Below are positions 20,815 to 39,696 of a stretch of DNA of 64,000 nt, piece after piece; positions within the stretch are counted from its first letter, which is position 1, and each line of letters opens with the position of its first letter. A model generated the notes under the pieces. That model was given only the letters and a program-made list of their open reading frames with translations. It did not search any database and had not been told where the DNA came from. The position numbers were made by a program, and so were the translations under genes. The stretch covers positions 1 to 64,000 of the forward strand of contig JABWBO010000002.1 in assembly GCA_013360465.1 (NCBI GenBank), written 5' to 3'. Origin of the DNA: Anaerolineae bacterium. Its GTDB lineage: Bacteria > Chloroflexota > Anaerolineae > Aggregatilineales > Phototrophicaceae.

Positions 20815-21903
20815 ATGCACAAACTCAAAGTTGCCGTCTTGGGTGCAACAGGAGCAGTTGGACAGCGTTTCATTCAACTGCTAGAGGAACACCCCTGGTT
20901 TGTAGTCAATGAAGTCATTGGATCTGGTCGCAGCGCAGGGCATCCTTACGGCGAGATCACCAACTGGGTTCTCGACGGTGAAATACCCCATTCGATTCGT
21001 CATCTGATCGTCAAACCTCTTGATGCCGAGCTAGAATCGCCGCTCGTGTTTTCAGCCTTGCCGAAGGAAGCAGCTGCCCGTGAGATGGAGTTAGCAGAGG
21101 CGGGGCATATCGTCTGCACCAATGCATCGCTGAACAGGATGGTCGAGGATGTACCGCTCCTGCTTCCAGAAGCAAATGCCGACCATATCCGGCTGATCGA
21201 CGTGCAAAGGCGCAATCGGGGCTGGAAGACGGGCGCGGTCGTGGCAAACTCCAACTGCACCGCCATGCCGGTGGTGATGGCTCTCGCGCCGCTGCGTCAG
21301 TTCGGCGTGCGCCGCTGTCATATGGTCAGCGCTCAAGCTATCAGCGGAGCAGGGCATCCAGGTGTGGCATCGCTGGACATTCTCGACAACATGATTCCGT
21401 ACATTGGTGGTGAAGAGGAAAAACTGGAGACGGAACCCCTGAAGATGCTTGGTTCTTTTGTGGATAACCACATTGAATGGCTCAACTCCATTATGGGCGC
21501 ATCCTGCAATCGTGCTCCGGTAATCGATGGGCATCTCATCAACATCTCGGTTGATCTCGCGACGCAACCCAGCCATGAAGCGATCATTGATGCCTGGGAT
21601 AACTTCCGCGGTCCATATCCTGTTGGAACACTGCCCAGCGCACCACAGAAACCGGTCATGTACCTGCGGCACGCAGACCGCCCGCAGACGAGACGTGACC
21701 GCATGAACGGCAACGGCATGTCCACATCTGTGGGCCGCCTGAGACTCTGCCCGCTGTTGGGTTATAAGTTCGTAGCGCTTTCACACAATACCATTCGTGG
21801 TGCAGCAGGGTGCAGCATCCTCAATGCGGAGCTTCTCGCCGTTGAAGGCTATATCTCTGCATTCGACCCTCAGCGACTCGTCACGGAGAAGCTGGCACTG
21901 TAG
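20815..21903 (+). CDS. asd: Aspartate-semialdehyde dehydrogenase, archaeal/fungal-type
   Basis: The 362-aa enzyme reduces aspartyl phosphate to aspartate semialdehyde for lysine, threonine and methionine synthesis. The N-terminal dinucleotide motif is GATGAVGQRF. The catalytic cysteine is Cys148 in NSNCTAMP, and SGAGHPG follows near residue 180. The order and length fit the long branch of the family found in archaea, fungi and some bacteria rather than the enterobacterial form. It begins 3 bp after pheA. It precedes sqdB by 37 bp, and its product could feed the DapL-like aminotransferase far downstream. Confidence 0.95.
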   Translation: MHKLKVAVLGATGAVGQRFIQLLEEHPWFVVNEVIGSGRSAGHPYGEITNWVLDGEIPHSIRHLIVKPLDAELESPLVFSALPKEAAAREMELAEAGHIVCTNASLNRMVEDVPLLLPEANADHIRLIDVQRRNRGWKTGAVVANSNCTAMPVVMALAPLRQFGVRRCHMVSAQAISGAGHPGVASLDILDNMIPYIGGEEEKLETEPLKMLGSFVDNHIEWLNSIMGASCNRAPVIDGHLINISVDLATQPSHEAIIDAWDNFRGPYPVGTLPSAPQKPVMYLRHADRPQTRRDRMNGNGMSTSVGRLRLCPLLGYKFVALSHNTIRGAAGCSILNAELLAVEGYISAFDPQRLVTEKLAL

Positions 21904-21940
21904 CAAGATTCACCTCACTCTGTATAAGTTGGAGGACTAC

Positions 21941-23149
21941 ATGAAAGTCTTCATCGCCGGGATCGACGGATACCTGGGTTGGTCACTGGCGCAATATCTC
22001 ACCGCGCGCGGACATGAAGTCGCTGGGACTGACAAGTTTCTGCGGCGAGCTTGGGTTGAAGAGCTTGGTAGCGTAAGTGCCCTGCCTGTTTTCAGCATAG
22101 AAGAGAGGCTGACAGCATTTCGCGCAAGATTCGGCAAATCGCTGATCTTCCGCGAGGGTGATTTGCTCGACTACGAATTCGTTCGTGGTTTCCTTGAAGA
22201 GTTTCAACCGGAGGCGATTGTCCACCTGGCTGAGATGCCCTCTGCGCCATACTCTATGATCGACCAGGTCCATGCCGCTTTCACACACAGCAACAACGTC
22301 ATTGGCAGCCTGAACATCCTTTGGGCGATGCGAGAAGTGTGTCCAGATGCACACCTCGTCAAGCTTGGGACGATGGGGGAATATGGCACACCGAATGTTG
22401 ATATTCCAGAAGGCTTTTTCGAGCTGGAGTATCGCGGGCGAAAAGATCGCCTGCCATTTCCTCGTCAACCCGGCAGCTTCTATCATCTGACCAAGGTCCA
22501 TGACACCCACAATACGATTTTTGCCTGCCGGGTGTGGGGACTGCGATCAACGGATATCATGCAAGGGGTGGTGTTCGGCACGCGCATTGATGAAATGGGC
22601 GATGACCCGCATTTATCAACACGCCTGGACTTTGACCAGTGCTTTGGTACCGCCATCAATCGTTTTTGCTGTCAGGCTGTGATTGGACACCCACTGACGC
22701 TGTACGGTCGAGGAGGGCAGACCAGAGGATTCCTGCCGCTGCGTGATTCAATGCAGTGCCTGACCCTTGCCATCGAGAATCCGCCTAAGCCAGGCGAGTA
22801 TCGCGTCTTCAACCAGTTCGAAGAGTGCTACACTATCGAGGAGCTTGCTTTCAAAGTCAAAGAAGCGGGCGATAGGGCAGGACTTTCAGTCGATATCCTG
22901 CACTACGACAATCCTCGCAAGGAACTCGAAGCGCACTACTACCACCCAGATCGGCAGAACCTGATCGATCTGGGCTACAAGCCCACCCACGATGTTGTTG
23001 CAGAAATGCAGATCATGCTCCGAGATCTGATACCTCACCAGGCAAGAATCATGCACAAGCGAGAGATTCTCGTCCCGGATATTCGTTGGGATGGCACACG
23101 CCGCCGCTCTCTTGTCATTCAACAAACTGCTGAGACCTTCAAACCATAG
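21941..23149 (+). CDS. sqdB: UDP-sulfoquinovose synthase (SQD1/SqdB)
   Basis: This 402-aa short-chain dehydrogenase-type enzyme converts UDP-glucose and sulfite to UDP-sulfoquinovose for the sulfolipid SQDG. The NAD motif GIDGYLGW starts at residue 7. The catalytic triad is Thr144 (GTMGEYG), Tyr181 and Lys185 (SFYHLTK). These correspond one residue off to the Thr, Tyr and Lys known in plant SQD1. Diagnostic stretches DIMQGVVFGT and GGQTRGFLPLRDSMQC are present. GGAGG lies six bases before the ATG at 21941. No sulfolipid glycosyltransferase (SqdX/SQD2) is adjacent. An S-layer glycan role, as for Agl3 of archaea, is an alternative end use. Confidence 0.92.
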   Translation: MKVFIAGIDGYLGWSLAQYLTARGHEVAGTDKFLRRAWVEELGSVSALPVFSIEERLTAFRARFGKSLIFREGDLLDYEFVRGFLEEFQPEAIVHLAEMPSAPYSMIDQVHAAFTHSNNVIGSLNILWAMREVCPDAHLVKLGTMGEYGTPNVDIPEGFFELEYRGRKDRLPFPRQPGSFYHLTKVHDTHNTIFACRVWGLRSTDIMQGVVFGTRIDEMGDDPHLSTRLDFDQCFGTAINRFCCQAVIGHPLTLYGRGGQTRGFLPLRDSMQCLTLAIENPPKPGEYRVFNQFEECYTIEELAFKVKEAGDRAGLSVDILHYDNPRKELEAHYYHPDRQNLIDLGYKPTHDVVAEMQIMLRDLIPHQARIMHKREILVPDIRWDGTRRRSLVIQQTAETFKP

Positions 23150-23160
23150 ATGAATGGATC

Positions 23161-24471
23161 ATGGTTCAGTATCTGAAGCTAAACGAACTCTCCAATGCAC
23201 GGCTCGTTCAGATTCTTCGACGTGCCGAGACAGATATTCGGGATCTACTTCCTCGCGCGCAGGAAGTGATTGATAAGGTGCGAACTGAAGGTGATCGGGC
23301 GGTCGTTGAGTATGCGCGGCAGTTCGACTGTCGCGACTTCGAAGCACCCATGCTGCGCGCCGGCGAAGCCGATTTCGCCGAAGCGCGCGCAGCACTGGAG
23401 CCGGATGTTATCGACGCGATACGTCAAGCGCACACCAATATTGAGCGATACCATCGAGAACAGATGCCCGAACCCATGTGGTTCTCCGAAGTCCGCCCTG
23501 GGATTCTGGCGGGCGAAAAGGTCACGCCCATCACGAGTGTCGGACTCTATGTGCCCAGGGGAAAAGGGGCGTTTCCGTCAGTAATGCTCATGCTGGCGAC
23601 ACCCGCAAAAGTAGCCGGTGTAGAAGATGTCGTGGTCGTTTCGCCGCCTGCGCCGAACGGGAAGGCAGATGCCGCATCGCTCGTCGCAGCTGAGATCTGT
23701 GGTATCAGCGATGTGTACGTTGTAGGTGGCATGCAGGCGGTTGCAGCGCTTGCCTATGGCACTGAGACCATTCCAAAGGTTCAGAAGATCATCGGACCCG
23801 GAAGCAGCTACGTCTCCGCAGCGAAGCGCCTGCTGTATGGAGTTGTGGATGTGGGCTTGCCAGCGGGTCCCAGCGAGTCGATCATTTTGACTGATGAGGC
23901 AGTCGATCCGCGTCTCGCAGCGCTCGATTTGCTCGTTGAGGCGGAGCATGGTCCAGACTCTGCGGCACTCCTTGTCACTCACAGCGAGAAGGTCGCACAA
24001 GGCGTGCTGGAAGCATTGCCCGAATACATCGCAGAACTCCCGGAGTGGCGACGTCAGTTCGTAGAGCGCGTTCTCTCCAATTATGGCGGCGTTATGCTCA
24101 CTGGTTCTCTGGATCAATCTATCGACTTCGTGAACCGCTATGCCCCAGAACATCTGGAAATTCTGACCACCGATCCTTTCATCACGCTTATGAGGATTCG
24201 CAATGCGGGCGAGATCCTACTGGGCAACTACACGCCGATACCAACCGCTAACTACTGCCTAGGCTTAAATGCGATTCTGCCCACTGGCGGCTTTGCGCGC
24301 TCATTCTCCGCCGTCGGTGTGTGGGATTTCCTTAAGCGATCAGGCGTCGGATATCTCTCTCGCGAAGGTTACATGGAACTTCAAGGGATCACTACGAGAC
24401 TGGCTGATTATGAAGGTTTCCCTGCTCATGCGCTTGCGATTCGCAAACGCAACGATATCCTGGACATATGA
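23161..24471 (+). CDS. hisD: Histidinol dehydrogenase
   Basis: The 436-aa enzyme carries out the last two oxidations of histidine synthesis (histidinol to histidine). It shows the NAD-site block PRGKGAFPSVMLMLATPAK cut by family-typical residues, the GPGSSYV segment, the zinc-site LLVEAEHGPDSAA and the YAPEHLEI motif. The length is normal. It lies 11 bp after sqdB and its stop overlaps the kinase-like gene by 4 nt. hisG and hisZ lie nearby on the opposite strand, so histidine genes here are split between two transcripts. Confidence 0.96.
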   Translation: MVQYLKLNELSNARLVQILRRAETDIRDLLPRAQEVIDKVRTEGDRAVVEYARQFDCRDFEAPMLRAGEADFAEARAALEPDVIDAIRQAHTNIERYHREQMPEPMWFSEVRPGILAGEKVTPITSVGLYVPRGKGAFPSVMLMLATPAKVAGVEDVVVVSPPAPNGKADAASLVAAEICGISDVYVVGGMQAVAALAYGTETIPKVQKIIGPGSSYVSAAKRLLYGVVDVGLPAGPSESIILTDEAVDPRLAALDLLVEAEHGPDSAALLVTHSEKVAQGVLEALPEYIAELPEWRRQFVERVLSNYGGVMLTGSLDQSIDFVNRYAPEHLEILTTDPFITLMRIRNAGEILLGNYTPIPTANYCLGLNAILPTGGFARSFSAVGVWDFLKRSGVGYLSREGYMELQGITTRLADYEGFPAHALAIRKRNDILDI

Positions 24472-25737: not shown

Positions 25738-26739
25738 TCACTGATCCAGAACATCCTGGAGCATCTGGTATGTTGGTGAACAATCCATAAAGGCATAACG
25801 TACAGGAGACACTGTTGTCTGGACACCTCCTACAGCGCGAAGGTAATCCACAGCAGGCAGCAAATCACGATTGGAAATAATCAGCGTGACGGTATACCAC
25901 CACGGATCGCTTCCGTAAATCGGGGCAATCGTGGGTCCCTGTAGCCCTCGCGTAACGGGGTTCTGCATAATACGCTGCGCAATGACTTCGGCGCTCTCTC
26001 CCCGAATATTGCAGGTAAGCTGAATGTAGCGTTTCCCTTGCAGTGCAGCATCAACATATTCCAAGAGTAACCGCGTAACATCACGCTGTGCTGTTGAGTT
26101 CTTGAGCGCGGCATGATTCCCAATCAGACAAGCCTGTGACTCGAGGAGGGTCCCGTCGTCCAGAGGTTTTAAGTGATTCTCACGGAGGGTCGTTCCGGTC
26201 TGTGTGAGGTCAATAATGACATCCGCATAGCCAATAGTCGGCGCCGCCTCGATCGCTCCTTCGGCATTGACCAGCGAAAACTGGTGAATGCCATGCTCGT
26301 AAAGGAACTTGCGAGCGAGGCGAGTGAATTTTGTCGCGACACGGAGGTTGCGCCCGTGCTGTTCACGCATGTCGTGTGCAACCTCTGCCAGATCAATTAC
26401 GCTGGTCACATCAATCCAGGACTCGGGCACAGCTACTATGAGTTTGCACTGCCCATAATGGAGATCATCATGAATAACGACGACCTCATTAAAGGGCTGC
26501 TCTTTCACAACATCCAGTCCGGTGATCCCTAGTTGGGCAGTGCCATCTGCCACCTTATAGAGAACATCGTTTACCCGCTGGAACAGTACAGCAATTGACG
26601 GCAGCGCACTTATGACGCCCGTATACTGACGCGGATTTGGTTTGTCCACCCGAAGTCCACAGTCTGCCAGAAAACCGAGTGTCGGATCAGCAAGCGCGCC
26701 CTTGCTCGGCAGCGCCAGGGTCACAGTGTCAATCGTCAT
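25738..26739 (-). CDS. hisG: ATP phosphoribosyltransferase, long form (HisG with regulatory domain)
   Basis: The 333-aa enzyme joins ATP and PRPP, the first step of histidine synthesis. The phosphoribosyltransferase part begins LALPSKGAL and includes DLTQTGTTLRENHL, the PRPP-binding loop region. After about residue 235 there is a C-terminal extension (KRYIQLTCNIRG through PIYGSDPWW to VGGVQTTV) that matches the ACT-like histidine-binding domain of the long HisG form. The ATG at 26739 gives the canonical N-terminus. It overlaps hisZ by 11 nt. A long HisG should not need HisZ, which makes the pair notable. Confidence 0.92.
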   Translation of the reverse strand: MTIDTVTLALPSKGALADPTLGFLADCGLRVDKPNPRQYTGVISALPSIAVLFQRVNDVLYKVADGTAQLGITGLDVVKEQPFNEVVVIHDDLHYGQCKLIVAVPESWIDVTSVIDLAEVAHDMREQHGRNLRVATKFTRLARKFLYEHGIHQFSLVNAEGAIEAAPTIGYADVIIDLTQTGTTLRENHLKPLDDGTLLESQACLIGNHAALKNSTAQRDVTRLLLEYVDAALQGKRYIQLTCNIRGESAEVIAQRIMQNPVTRGLQGPTIAPIYGSDPWWYTVTLIISNRDLLPAVDYLRAVGGVQTTVSPVRYAFMDCSPTYQMLQDVLDQ

Positions 26740-28093
26740 GAAGCTGTCCTTCTTCGGCAAGTTCGAGTACATCCGCCAATCTTGCCATGGAATACTTCTC
26801 ACCTTTGCATCGCAGCGTACCATCACCTTCGGCAATGACGCCGGGCATCCGCGCATCTCCAGCAGTACGTTCTTTGAAGATCACGGAACAGCCCGCTGCG
26901 CGCATTTCCGATGCCCACCATACAGCCGTCTTCGCAGAATCTTCGTCGAGCCAAAGCGTGACCGGATTGGTGCTTGATCCGTCTGCAAGGGCGGATTGGC
27001 GGATAATGTTTTCCATATAGAACGCAATCCCCACAGCCGGAGCATGCACGCCTCCCAGCAGGCGTGCCAGTTCGTTGTACCGTCCGCCGCCGGCAATGAG
27101 TCCTCCTGTCATACCGCGAAACTCAAATACGATGTCGGTGTAGTAGTTCCAGTCCCGCGCAAGCAAGGGATGAACTTCAATTTGTTGGGGTGACTGATCA
27201 TAGGATTTCACCAATTCGATCAGGGATTCGATCTGATCAAGCGCTCGATGAGCGGTCGCCTGATGGTCTAAAAGACCAGCGCGAACCACTTGAGGAGCAT
27301 TCGGGTTCGACCTATCAATCTCCTGCAGGTACTCAAGCTGATCGAGAGCCTGAACAACCTGTCCTCGAAGCGCTGCACGCTCCGATTTTCGCTTGAGTCG
27401 CCTGAGAATATCCTCGCGCGATCTTCCAGCAAATGATGTCTCAGACTCTAGAAGCGCCGTTAGTTCGCCGCTGTTTTTCTGGACGAAATCGCTTTCGATG
27501 CTCCGGATCGCTGACAGCTTATCGAAGCGTTCCAGAACAAACGCTTTTCCGTCAGTTGTGAGATGGTGAAGATGATCTAGCACGAATTGTGCAGTTCGGG
27601 GATCAAGTTCATAAGATTCGAGCAGCCCGCGCAGGAATTGGACGCTTCCTATCGCCAGTCGGATGTCGTTACATCCTGCTGCATGTAGCCCGGCGCAGCC
27701 AAGCACAATAACCTCGGCGTCGGCAAGCCAGCTTCCCCAACCGATAAGCTCTGCGCCGACACTATATCGCTGATAGACGTCCGCCGAGTCCAGCGAGTCT
27801 TCGAAAACGCTGCCAGCGAACTGCCACCTTGCAATGGACGCCATCCCTGGTGACTGCATCTCCGCATAGGCTTTGGCTGCTGTGGCAGTGAATTCGGGAC
27901 GGAGTGCCAACTGCCGTCCGAAGCGCTCAAAGGTGAAGAGCCGTTGAATAAACTGATCGCCGGCTTTCGTCAGAAACAGATCGGCCGGCTGAAGTATCTG
28001 TGTCTCCAGCCGTTGGTAACCGAATCGGTCGATCTCCGCCTGCACCGCTTCAATCAGGCGAAACATTTGTACTTGAGAGTTGATGTACGGCAC
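26729..28093 (-). CDS. hisZ: HisZ-like regulatory subunit (histidyl-tRNA synthetase paralogue)
   Basis: The 454-aa protein resembles the class II core of histidyl-tRNA synthetase. It has GYQRLETQILQPADLFL, ALRPEFTA (motif 2 region) and a GGGRYNEL loop near motif 3. The HisRS signatures are altered: the LVRGLDYYTG-type loop reads LLARDWNYYTD. That points to a HisZ rather than an active synthetase. The N-terminus is short, starting at GTG 28093 with AGAGG nine bases upstream and an in-frame stop just before. A C-terminal domain of about 90 residues may be a remnant of the anticodon-binding domain. It overlaps hisG by 11 nt. Confidence 0.8.
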   Translation of the reverse strand: MPYINSQVQMFRLIEAVQAEIDRFGYQRLETQILQPADLFLTKAGDQFIQRLFTFERFGRQLALRPEFTATAAKAYAEMQSPGMASIARWQFAGSVFEDSLDSADVYQRYSVGAELIGWGSWLADAEVIVLGCAGLHAAGCNDIRLAIGSVQFLRGLLESYELDPRTAQFVLDHLHHLTTDGKAFVLERFDKLSAIRSIESDFVQKNSGELTALLESETSFAGRSREDILRRLKRKSERAALRGQVVQALDQLEYLQEIDRSNPNAPQVVRAGLLDHQATAHRALDQIESLIELVKSYDQSPQQIEVHPLLARDWNYYTDIVFEFRGMTGGLIAGGGRYNELARLLGGVHAPAVGIAFYMENIIRQSALADGSSTNPVTLWLDEDSAKTAVWWASEMRAAGCSVIFKERTAGDARMPGVIAEGDGTLRCKGEKYSMARLADVLELAEEGQLHDD

Positions 28094-39490: not shown

Positions 39491-39563
39491 TGCCCCATAG
39501 GGGATTCGAACCCCTGTTTTGGCCTTGAGAGGGCCACGTCCTAGGCCTCTAGACGAATGGGGC
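39491..39563 (-). tRNA. tRNA-Glu (anticodon CTC)
   Basis: A complete cloverleaf can be folded. The acceptor GCCCCAT pairs with ATGGGGC and the T-arm holds GTTCGAATC. The anticodon stem TGGCC/GGCCA encloses loop CTCTCAA, giving anticodon CTC for codon GAG. No CCA is encoded. It follows tRNA-Arg by 60 bp on the same strand, and both probably come from one precursor. Confidence 0.95.
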
Positions 39564-39623: not shown

Positions 39624-39696
39624 TGCGCCCAGAGGGATTCGAACCCCCGACCGATGGTTCCGAAGACCATTGCTCTATCCACTGAGCTATGAGCGC
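39624..39696 (-). tRNA. tRNA-Arg (anticodon TCG)
   Basis: The acceptor GCGCTCA pairs with TGGGCGC (one G-U), the D-arm is GCTC/GAGC and the T-loop is TTCGAAT. The anticodon stem ATGGT/ACCAT encloses loop CTTCGGA, giving anticodon TCG for codon CGA. CCA is not encoded. It is the first gene of the pair and has a consensus-like promoter 16 bp upstream. Confidence 0.95.

Follow-up and report, generated by a model that had tools for sequence, protein, structure and literature searches.

Two forms of ATP phosphoribosyltransferase (HisG) have been described. HisZ, a protein with the fold of histidyl-tRNA synthetase (HisRS), goes with short HisG, and long HisG goes without HisZ, according to three papers (PMC8305728, PMC2923632, PMC3896937); the first of these adds that no in-depth analysis of the distribution has been made (PMC8305728). 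Systems of HisZ with short HisG include those of Lactococcus lactis (1z7m), Thermotoga maritima (1usy), Psychrobacter arcticus (5m8h) and Acinetobacter baumannii (8oy0). Here we describe a locus that breaks this rule, found in a stretch of 64,000 nucleotides from an Anaerolineae bacterium of the Chloroflexota (GCA_013360465.1, contig JABWBO010000002.1, positions 1 to 64,000), hereafter the window, in which a long-form hisG overlaps a gene for a HisRS-like protein that we call ZL. The pair most likely represents a third architecture of ATP phosphoribosyltransferase, in which ZL docks on long HisG and serves as a regulatory subunit that senses histidine. In the open-licence literature we found no description of a long HisG with a HisZ partner, which is not proof of absence in print.

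Both genes lie on the minus strand, and ZL is upstream of hisG in that direction, as the sequence-only reading of this DNA had put it, while in coordinates ZL stands higher. The stop of ZL overlaps the start of hisG, and such overlaps are common among relatives (34 of 48 related loci, median 4 bp). ZL and long HisG are co-inherited and linked, and changes in HisG track the loss of ZL. Purifying selection acts on ZL, in which synthetase residues are missing and the histidine pocket is mostly kept. The features referred to below are as follows.

26729 to 28093, minus strand: ZL, HisZ-like gene encoding a HisRS-fold regulatory candidate of 454 aa, GTG start at 28093 and stop at 26729 (NCBIfam models; AlphaFold2; fold match to HisZ 3od1)
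25738 to 26739, minus strand: hisG, long-form ATP phosphoribosyltransferase of 333 aa, ATG at 26739 (Pfam, NCBIfam, AlphaFold2, structure alignment)
26729 to 26739, minus strand: 11-bp overlap between the end of ZL and the start of hisG, which makes translational coupling likely (sequence)
25804 to 26028, minus strand: C-terminal ACT-like regulatory domain, HisG residues 238-312 (predicted secondary structure; family models)
25819 to 25821, minus strand: HisG Gln307, equivalent of the C. glutamicum histidine-contact residue Ala270; Gly in the main ZL-less clade
26371 to 26433, minus strand: candidate ZL docking patch, HisG residues 103-123 (comparisons of ZL-bearing and ZL-less HisG)
26299 to 26301, minus strand: HisG Tyr147, grouped with the candidate docking patch
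27386 to 27424, minus strand: insertion motif R....I..R...K private to ZL, ZL residues 224-236 (alignment)
27800 to 27802, minus strand: ZL Glu98, which replaces the HisRS motif-2 Arg (alignment)
27008 to 27010, minus strand: ZL Asn362, which replaces the HisRS motif-3 Arg (alignment)

The long HisG and its HisRS-like neighbour

The HisG of the window is a long form with a complete ACT-type C-terminal domain, as had been read from the sequence. Both family models of this region scored above their cut-offs, Pfam HisG_C with 31.9 bits (cut-off 23.5) and TIGR03455 with 44.3 (cut-off 40.05). In the AlphaFold2 model, which has a predicted local distance difference test score (pLDDT) of 94.9 and a predicted template modelling score of 0.90, the regulatory fold is present as a strand-helix-strand-strand-helix-strand unit at residues 238-312. 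The model can be aligned end to end with long-form structures, the best being Medicago 6czm (Z 33.4 over 328 residues, root-mean-square deviation (rmsd) 2.7); histidine-bound 5lhu from M. tuberculosis gave a Z of 25.1. In two genomes of the survey (G178 and G022) the C-terminal domain of HisG has strongly diverged. At two loci with identical frame sizes, which may come from one genome, hisG is split into two overlapping frames of 252 and 131 aa (L089:2829-3883 and L180:3471-4525), either by a frameshift between the catalytic and ACT parts or by an assembly error.

The alignment shows that synthetase residues are missing from ZL, whereas its histidine pocket is largely retained. In the window protein Glu98 takes the place of the motif-2 Arg, Ser111 that of Gln127 and Asn362 that of the motif-3 Arg, in agreement with the altered synthetase motifs of the earlier reading. 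The HisRS residue numbers used here (Glu83, Gln127, Glu131, Arg259, Tyr264) follow what we take to be E. coli numbering, and M. tuberculosis residue numbers are assumed in the same way. Equivalents of Glu83, Glu131 and Tyr264 are present in all 40 ZL sequences compared and that of Arg259 in 38, whereas 12 lack the motif-2 Arg, 21 lack Gln127, and only 22 have Arg at the motif-3 position. In the lineage of the window, both Arg residues, Gln127 and the anticodon domain are all lost. Pfam HGTP_anticodon had no match in the window ZL, which retains a shortened C-terminal remnant of that region, and is present in HisS of the same genome. That HisS is complete, with intact motifs, and is encoded separately on contig C97, so the earlier suggestion to look for a true hisS elsewhere was borne out and ZL is not the sole HisS; hisG is single-copy in this genome. 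The pattern R....I..R...K was found in ZL at its four positions in 39, 34, 35 and 37 of 40 sequences, and was not shown by HisS or canonical HisZ in the alignment. Taken over the group, ZL displays a HisRS at several stages of catalytic-residue loss. The ratio of nonsynonymous to synonymous substitution rates (dN/dS) was 0.07-0.24 in the 11 close pairs with usable dS (12 listed), indicating a working protein under purifying selection, and ZL evolves faster than HisG.

The best NCBIfam models for the window ZL were hisZ (TIGR00443, 151 bits against a cut-off of 271.65) and hisS (TIGR00442, 137 bits), both far under cut-off. Five of eight other ZL passed TIGR00443 (274.1, 280.1, 274.4, 294 and 272.3 bits) and three did not (265, 245 and 260.6), and both canonical HisZ tested passed. 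Several ZL exceed the curated hisS cut-off of 286.75, with Trichodesmium at 313.5 and Coleofasciculus at 368, and databases may therefore label them histidine--tRNA ligase; those above the NCBIfam cut-off come from Trichodesmium, Coleofasciculus, a Chloroflexaceae and a genome of a genus that we label g6 (L174:1297-2943, L178:1835-3382, L187 and L277). A plasmid search with cyanobacterial ZL returned HisS, one HisZ record and other distant matches, none above 60% identity.

All 40 ZL rows form one clade apart from HisS and HisZ in an 84-row tree (support 100/99), and a 53-row tree likewise sets ZL apart (99/93). The 25 HisZ from short-HisG genomes of Chloroflexota and cyanobacteria, which represent HisZ in these trees without those of Firmicutes, Proteobacteria and Thermotoga, separate from ZL with support of 100/99 and 99/98; L023, truncated by a contig end, was left out. 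An approximately unbiased (AU) test did not reject a single clade of ZL and canonical HisZ (p 0.37). We considered an independent origin of ZL from HisRS, given that HisS lies between ZL and HisZ in the tree, yet did not take it as established, since the AU result keeps the joint clade possible. The AlphaFold2 model of the window ZL (pLDDT 88.6) has as its nearest solved fold HisZ of Bacillus halodurans (3od1, Z 33.1 over 353 residues, rmsd 4.1), followed by HisRS structures at Z 31.5 and lower, so that the fold alone cannot tell HisZ from HisRS.

Distribution and linkage of the pair

The pairing of ZL with long HisG is an established arrangement across the phylum and not an oddity of one genome. 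In the family of the window (98 genomes), ZL was found in 78 genomes, long HisG in 85 and both in 76, and in 72 of these 76 the two genes stand side by side on one contig, the remaining four having them on different contigs. Nine family genomes have HisG only: three with partial or contig-edge hisG matches and six from genus g6, where the region upstream of hisG is present and ZL is absent from it. Of 400 genomes sampled across the phylum, 111 carry ZL, their scores being clearly set off from the rest (at least 198.9 bits against at most 134.1), and a long HisG lies within a few kb at 27 of the 30 best ZL loci. In the class, 145 of 199 genomes have a HisG match, 62 of them to the long type strongly, and 12 of these 62 carry a HisG-linked ZL; at all 30 of the highest-scoring canonical HisZ loci of the class the downstream hisG is short. 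One genome of the genus of the window (G220) holds two ZL-HisG pairs, on contigs C345 and C198, which may mean that the bin contains a second organism or that the pair has truly been duplicated.

In a collection of named genomes, whose loci were found by HisG similarity, ZL is present at 71 of the 80 best HisG loci, including those of Okeania, Trichodesmium, Hydrocoleum, Limnofasciculus, Coleofasciculus, Prochloron, a Chloroflexaceae and relatives of Sphaerobacter. Among 24 named genomes, all have one HisG, 22 have ZL and 23 have a separate HisS. A HisG match was obtained in 67 of 146 cyanobacterial genomes; this long type occurs only in Trichodesmium, one further genome (G442) has a different long HisG match, and the other 65 match the catalytic part only or little more. 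This scattered distribution suggests that the ZL-HisG pair reached cyanobacteria by transfer, as a pair. A record titled Pleurocapsa minor GSE-CHR-MK-17-07R (L143) carries an Anaerolineae-like pair with a HisG 60% identical to that of the window, and this bin may be mislabelled or mixed.

HisG positions that follow the presence and loss of ZL

We compared 69 ZL-bearing HisG, with g6 set aside, to 28 ZL-less long HisG. The most different positions of the catalytic half include 109, 119, 122, 123 and 147, which have a fixed pattern in ZL-bearing HisG; further differing positions (321, 242 and 307) lie in or after the ACT domain. With g6 included, Asp110 is present in 79 of 79 ZL-bearing HisG against 11 of 29 ZL-less ones, and position 109 is hydrophobic in all 79 and mostly Asp, Thr, Glu or Ser in the ZL-less group. 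A second comparison was made within g6, between 28 ZL-bearing and six ZL-less HisG, over 183 positions conserved in the ZL-bearing rows. The ZL-less rows depart most at positions 16, 109, 147 and 155 (four of six each), and HisG without ZL has changed at positions independently marked as ZL-specific, namely 109, 120, 122 and 147.

The result that we rely on comes from 18 conserved positions ranked by the first comparison alone, with g6 left out. The six ZL-less g6 rows depart 13 times at these positions. In 2000 random draws of six ZL-bearing relatives the mean was 0.66 and the maximum 3, and six ZL-bearing rows chosen for their divergence gave 2. Outside the ranked set the ZL-less rows have 26 departures and the six divergent ZL-bearing rows 57, so by these counts the ZL-less rows are not unusually divergent elsewhere; the Fisher p-values of this test count the rows, which are related, as independent. 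The patch 103-123 plus 143-152, first scored when both comparisons were known, has 17 departures in the ZL-less rows against a random mean of 0.87. In the g6 alignments, then, HisG relaxes at ZL-specific positions after ZL loss, which is the behaviour expected of a docking surface. Positions 307, 242 and 321 of the ACT-domain region did not relax in the ZL-less g6 rows, and the alignment-based sign of docking is thus strong for the patch in the catalytic half and absent for the ACT domain. The candidate docking segment (HisG about 107-128) is an insertion largely missing in short HisG.

We also examined the histidine site of the ACT domain. In C. glutamicum HisG the histidine contacts in this domain are at positions 215, 231, 235, 250 and 270, as given in PMC3896937. 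At the corresponding positions of the window HisG, N244, L266, T270 and I287 are usual for the group, and the fifth is Gln307 instead of Gly or Ala. Four of the five contact positions are kept in most ZL-bearing genomes. The Asn, Leu, Gly and Thr positions of the site are retained in 112, 104, 118 and 102 of 123 ZL-bearing rows. These counts and the HisG tree cover loci of known ZL state with a hisG of at least 310 aa that is not truncated by a contig end (loci of unknown ZL state are tallied separately in the ACT-site count), and the tree also omits L131 and near-identical rows (164 reduced to 111). The Ala270-equivalent position is polar or bulky in 116 of the 123 ZL-bearing rows and Gly in 35 of 42 ZL-less rows, the other seven being L131, located at a contig end, and the six g6 genomes from which ZL was lost. 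We give little weight to this change as a transfer of sensing to ZL: the ZL-less Gly rows form one clade in the HisG tree with only three independent pairs, too few to treat the difference as an association, and the residue did not revert in g6 after ZL was lost.

Genus g6 has altered three of the five contact positions; in the rows shown, the Thr238 equivalent is Gly and the Leu234 equivalent is Ser, Thr or Ala. From these substitutions, its ACT histidine site is probably dead, with or without ZL, and in some lineages ZL may have taken over the regulation. In six g6 genomes (L294-L298 and L068) ZL is absent and the ACT histidine site of the long HisG is degraded, and the ATP phosphoribosyltransferase of these genomes may lack feedback control.

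Around the pair, hisD adjoins on the opposite strand (23161-24471). A UDP-sulfoquinovose-synthase-like gene (21797-23149, plus strand; 537 bits, slightly below the cut-off of 575) adjoins hisD and an aspartate-semialdehyde dehydrogenase gene (20815-21903). An Rfam scan of the window gave two tRNA genes near each other on the minus strand (39491-39563 and 39624-39696) and no leader RNA near the ZL-hisG pair.

A probable regulatory role for ZL and its alternatives

We regard it as probable that ZL is a catalytically dead HisRS paralogue serving as a regulatory subunit of the long HisG encoded with it. ZL would be made in step with HisG through overlapping translation and would dock on the catalytic half of HisG, with its basic insertion helix (residues about 224-240) perhaps making the contact to domain II near residues 103-123 and 147. 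Like HisZ with short HisG, it would relay the histidine level to the HisG active site. We infer physical docking, histidine binding by ZL and an effect on activity, as well as the direction of that effect and the stoichiometry. Because the ACT domain is still folded, the enzyme may hold two histidine sensors, ACT and ZL; in lineages with a seemingly degraded ACT sensor, ZL would be the sole one. The doubly regulated enzyme that the sequence-only reading had offered is compatible with this in most ZL-bearing genomes, where the ACT contacts are kept, and sits less well with g6, where three are changed. A fuller proposal is more tentative and, on balance, doubtful in all its parts together: a hexamer-type long HisG whose ZL was recruited independently of HisZ and docks through a domain-II segment missing from short HisG, with ACT and ZL as two histidine sensors, old in Chloroflexota, passed as a pair to Trichodesmium and its kin, and perhaps hidden in databases as hisS or hisZ.

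Several points weigh against a regulatory role. Early-branching ZL, such as that of Coleofasciculus, have all tested synthetase residues and the anticodon-binding domain, and part of them may still act as synthetases; in the lineage of the window, the loss of Gln127 and the motif-2 Arg may have altered the histidine pocket. ZL lies away from hisG in two Herpetosiphon genomes and one further genome, and linkage is thus not absolute. The six losses in g6 are probably two to four independent events, and something other than ZL could constrain the patch residues of HisG. The early-branching proteins, with motif-2 and motif-3 Arg, Gln127 and anticodon domain all kept, and the Trichodesmium and Coleofasciculus scores above the hisS cut-off speak for ZL as a second synthetase, or a tRNA-related HisRS paralogue, that travels with hisG, for instance to be co-expressed with it when histidine is short. 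We consider this unlikely: the lineage of the window lacks these residues and the Pfam anticodon domain and yet is under purifying selection, and a full HisS is encoded elsewhere in the genome. That ZL stays linked to hisG, and that the HisG surface changes where ZL is lost, likewise speak against the other role for a HisRS paralogue that had been raised from the sequence.

The transitional state proposed at the same time, here taken to mean that HisG is moving from long to short or back and one regulator is a redundant, decaying relic, appears improbable. The degraded ACT contacts of g6, the diverged C-terminal domains of G178 and G022 and the loss of ZL from six g6 genomes speak for such a relic, but the pair is found across Chloroflexota, in Sphaerobacter relatives and in cyanobacteria, the ACT-site residues are kept in most ZL-bearing rows, and the dN/dS values are those of a maintained gene. 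It is also very improbable that ZL is just a divergent HisZ of the known family which works on the catalytic core and for which the ACT domain is a passive passenger. HisZ 3od1 is the top fold match and the AU test allows a joint clade, whereas the ZL clade is separate from the 25 HisZ of short-HisG genomes and has an insertion motif of its own, most lineages conserve the ACT domain without drift, and the candidate docking helix is an insertion absent from short HisG. With ZL as the regulatory subunit, a single enzyme would have two histidine sensors of unrelated origin, and the ZL-less members of g6 provide a natural control for studying the loss of a regulator. As an exception to the short-HisG-only rule, the pair extends over a phylum and to cyanobacteria of global importance, among them Trichodesmium.

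The locus resembles the HisZ systems of short HisG in that a HisRS-fold partner is encoded with hisG, synthetase residues are gone with the core of the histidine pocket kept, and hisS is elsewhere. In contrast to those systems, the HisG of the window is long with its own ACT domain, and short HisG is largely without the candidate docking segment. ZL, a separate clade with a private insertion motif, departs from HisZ as defined in model score (for the window protein), in its lack of a short partner and in tree position. HisZ of Geobacter and Pelobacter is a HisRS paralogue in histidine synthesis that may retain an anticodon-binding domain, like the early-branching ZL, and differs in being partnered with short hisG, according to PMC2923632. 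The closest solved relative of the window HisG is plant HISN1 (Medicago 6czl/6czm; 239 bits by sequence, fold Z 33), which falls with the long HisG of ZL-less Chloroflexota, Gly standing where the window HisG has Gln307. Its nesting among these (Shimodaira-Hasegawa-like approximate likelihood-ratio support 97), in a tree with Medicago as the one plant sequence and no fungal or proteobacterial long forms, hints at a bacterial source of the plant enzyme near this group. Like the long HisG of E. coli (1h3d), M. tuberculosis (5lhu) and Campylobacter (4yb6), the HisG of the window has catalytic domains and a C-terminal ACT-like domain; unlike those enzymes, which are described as working without HisZ, it is encoded by a gene linked to that of a HisRS paralogue.

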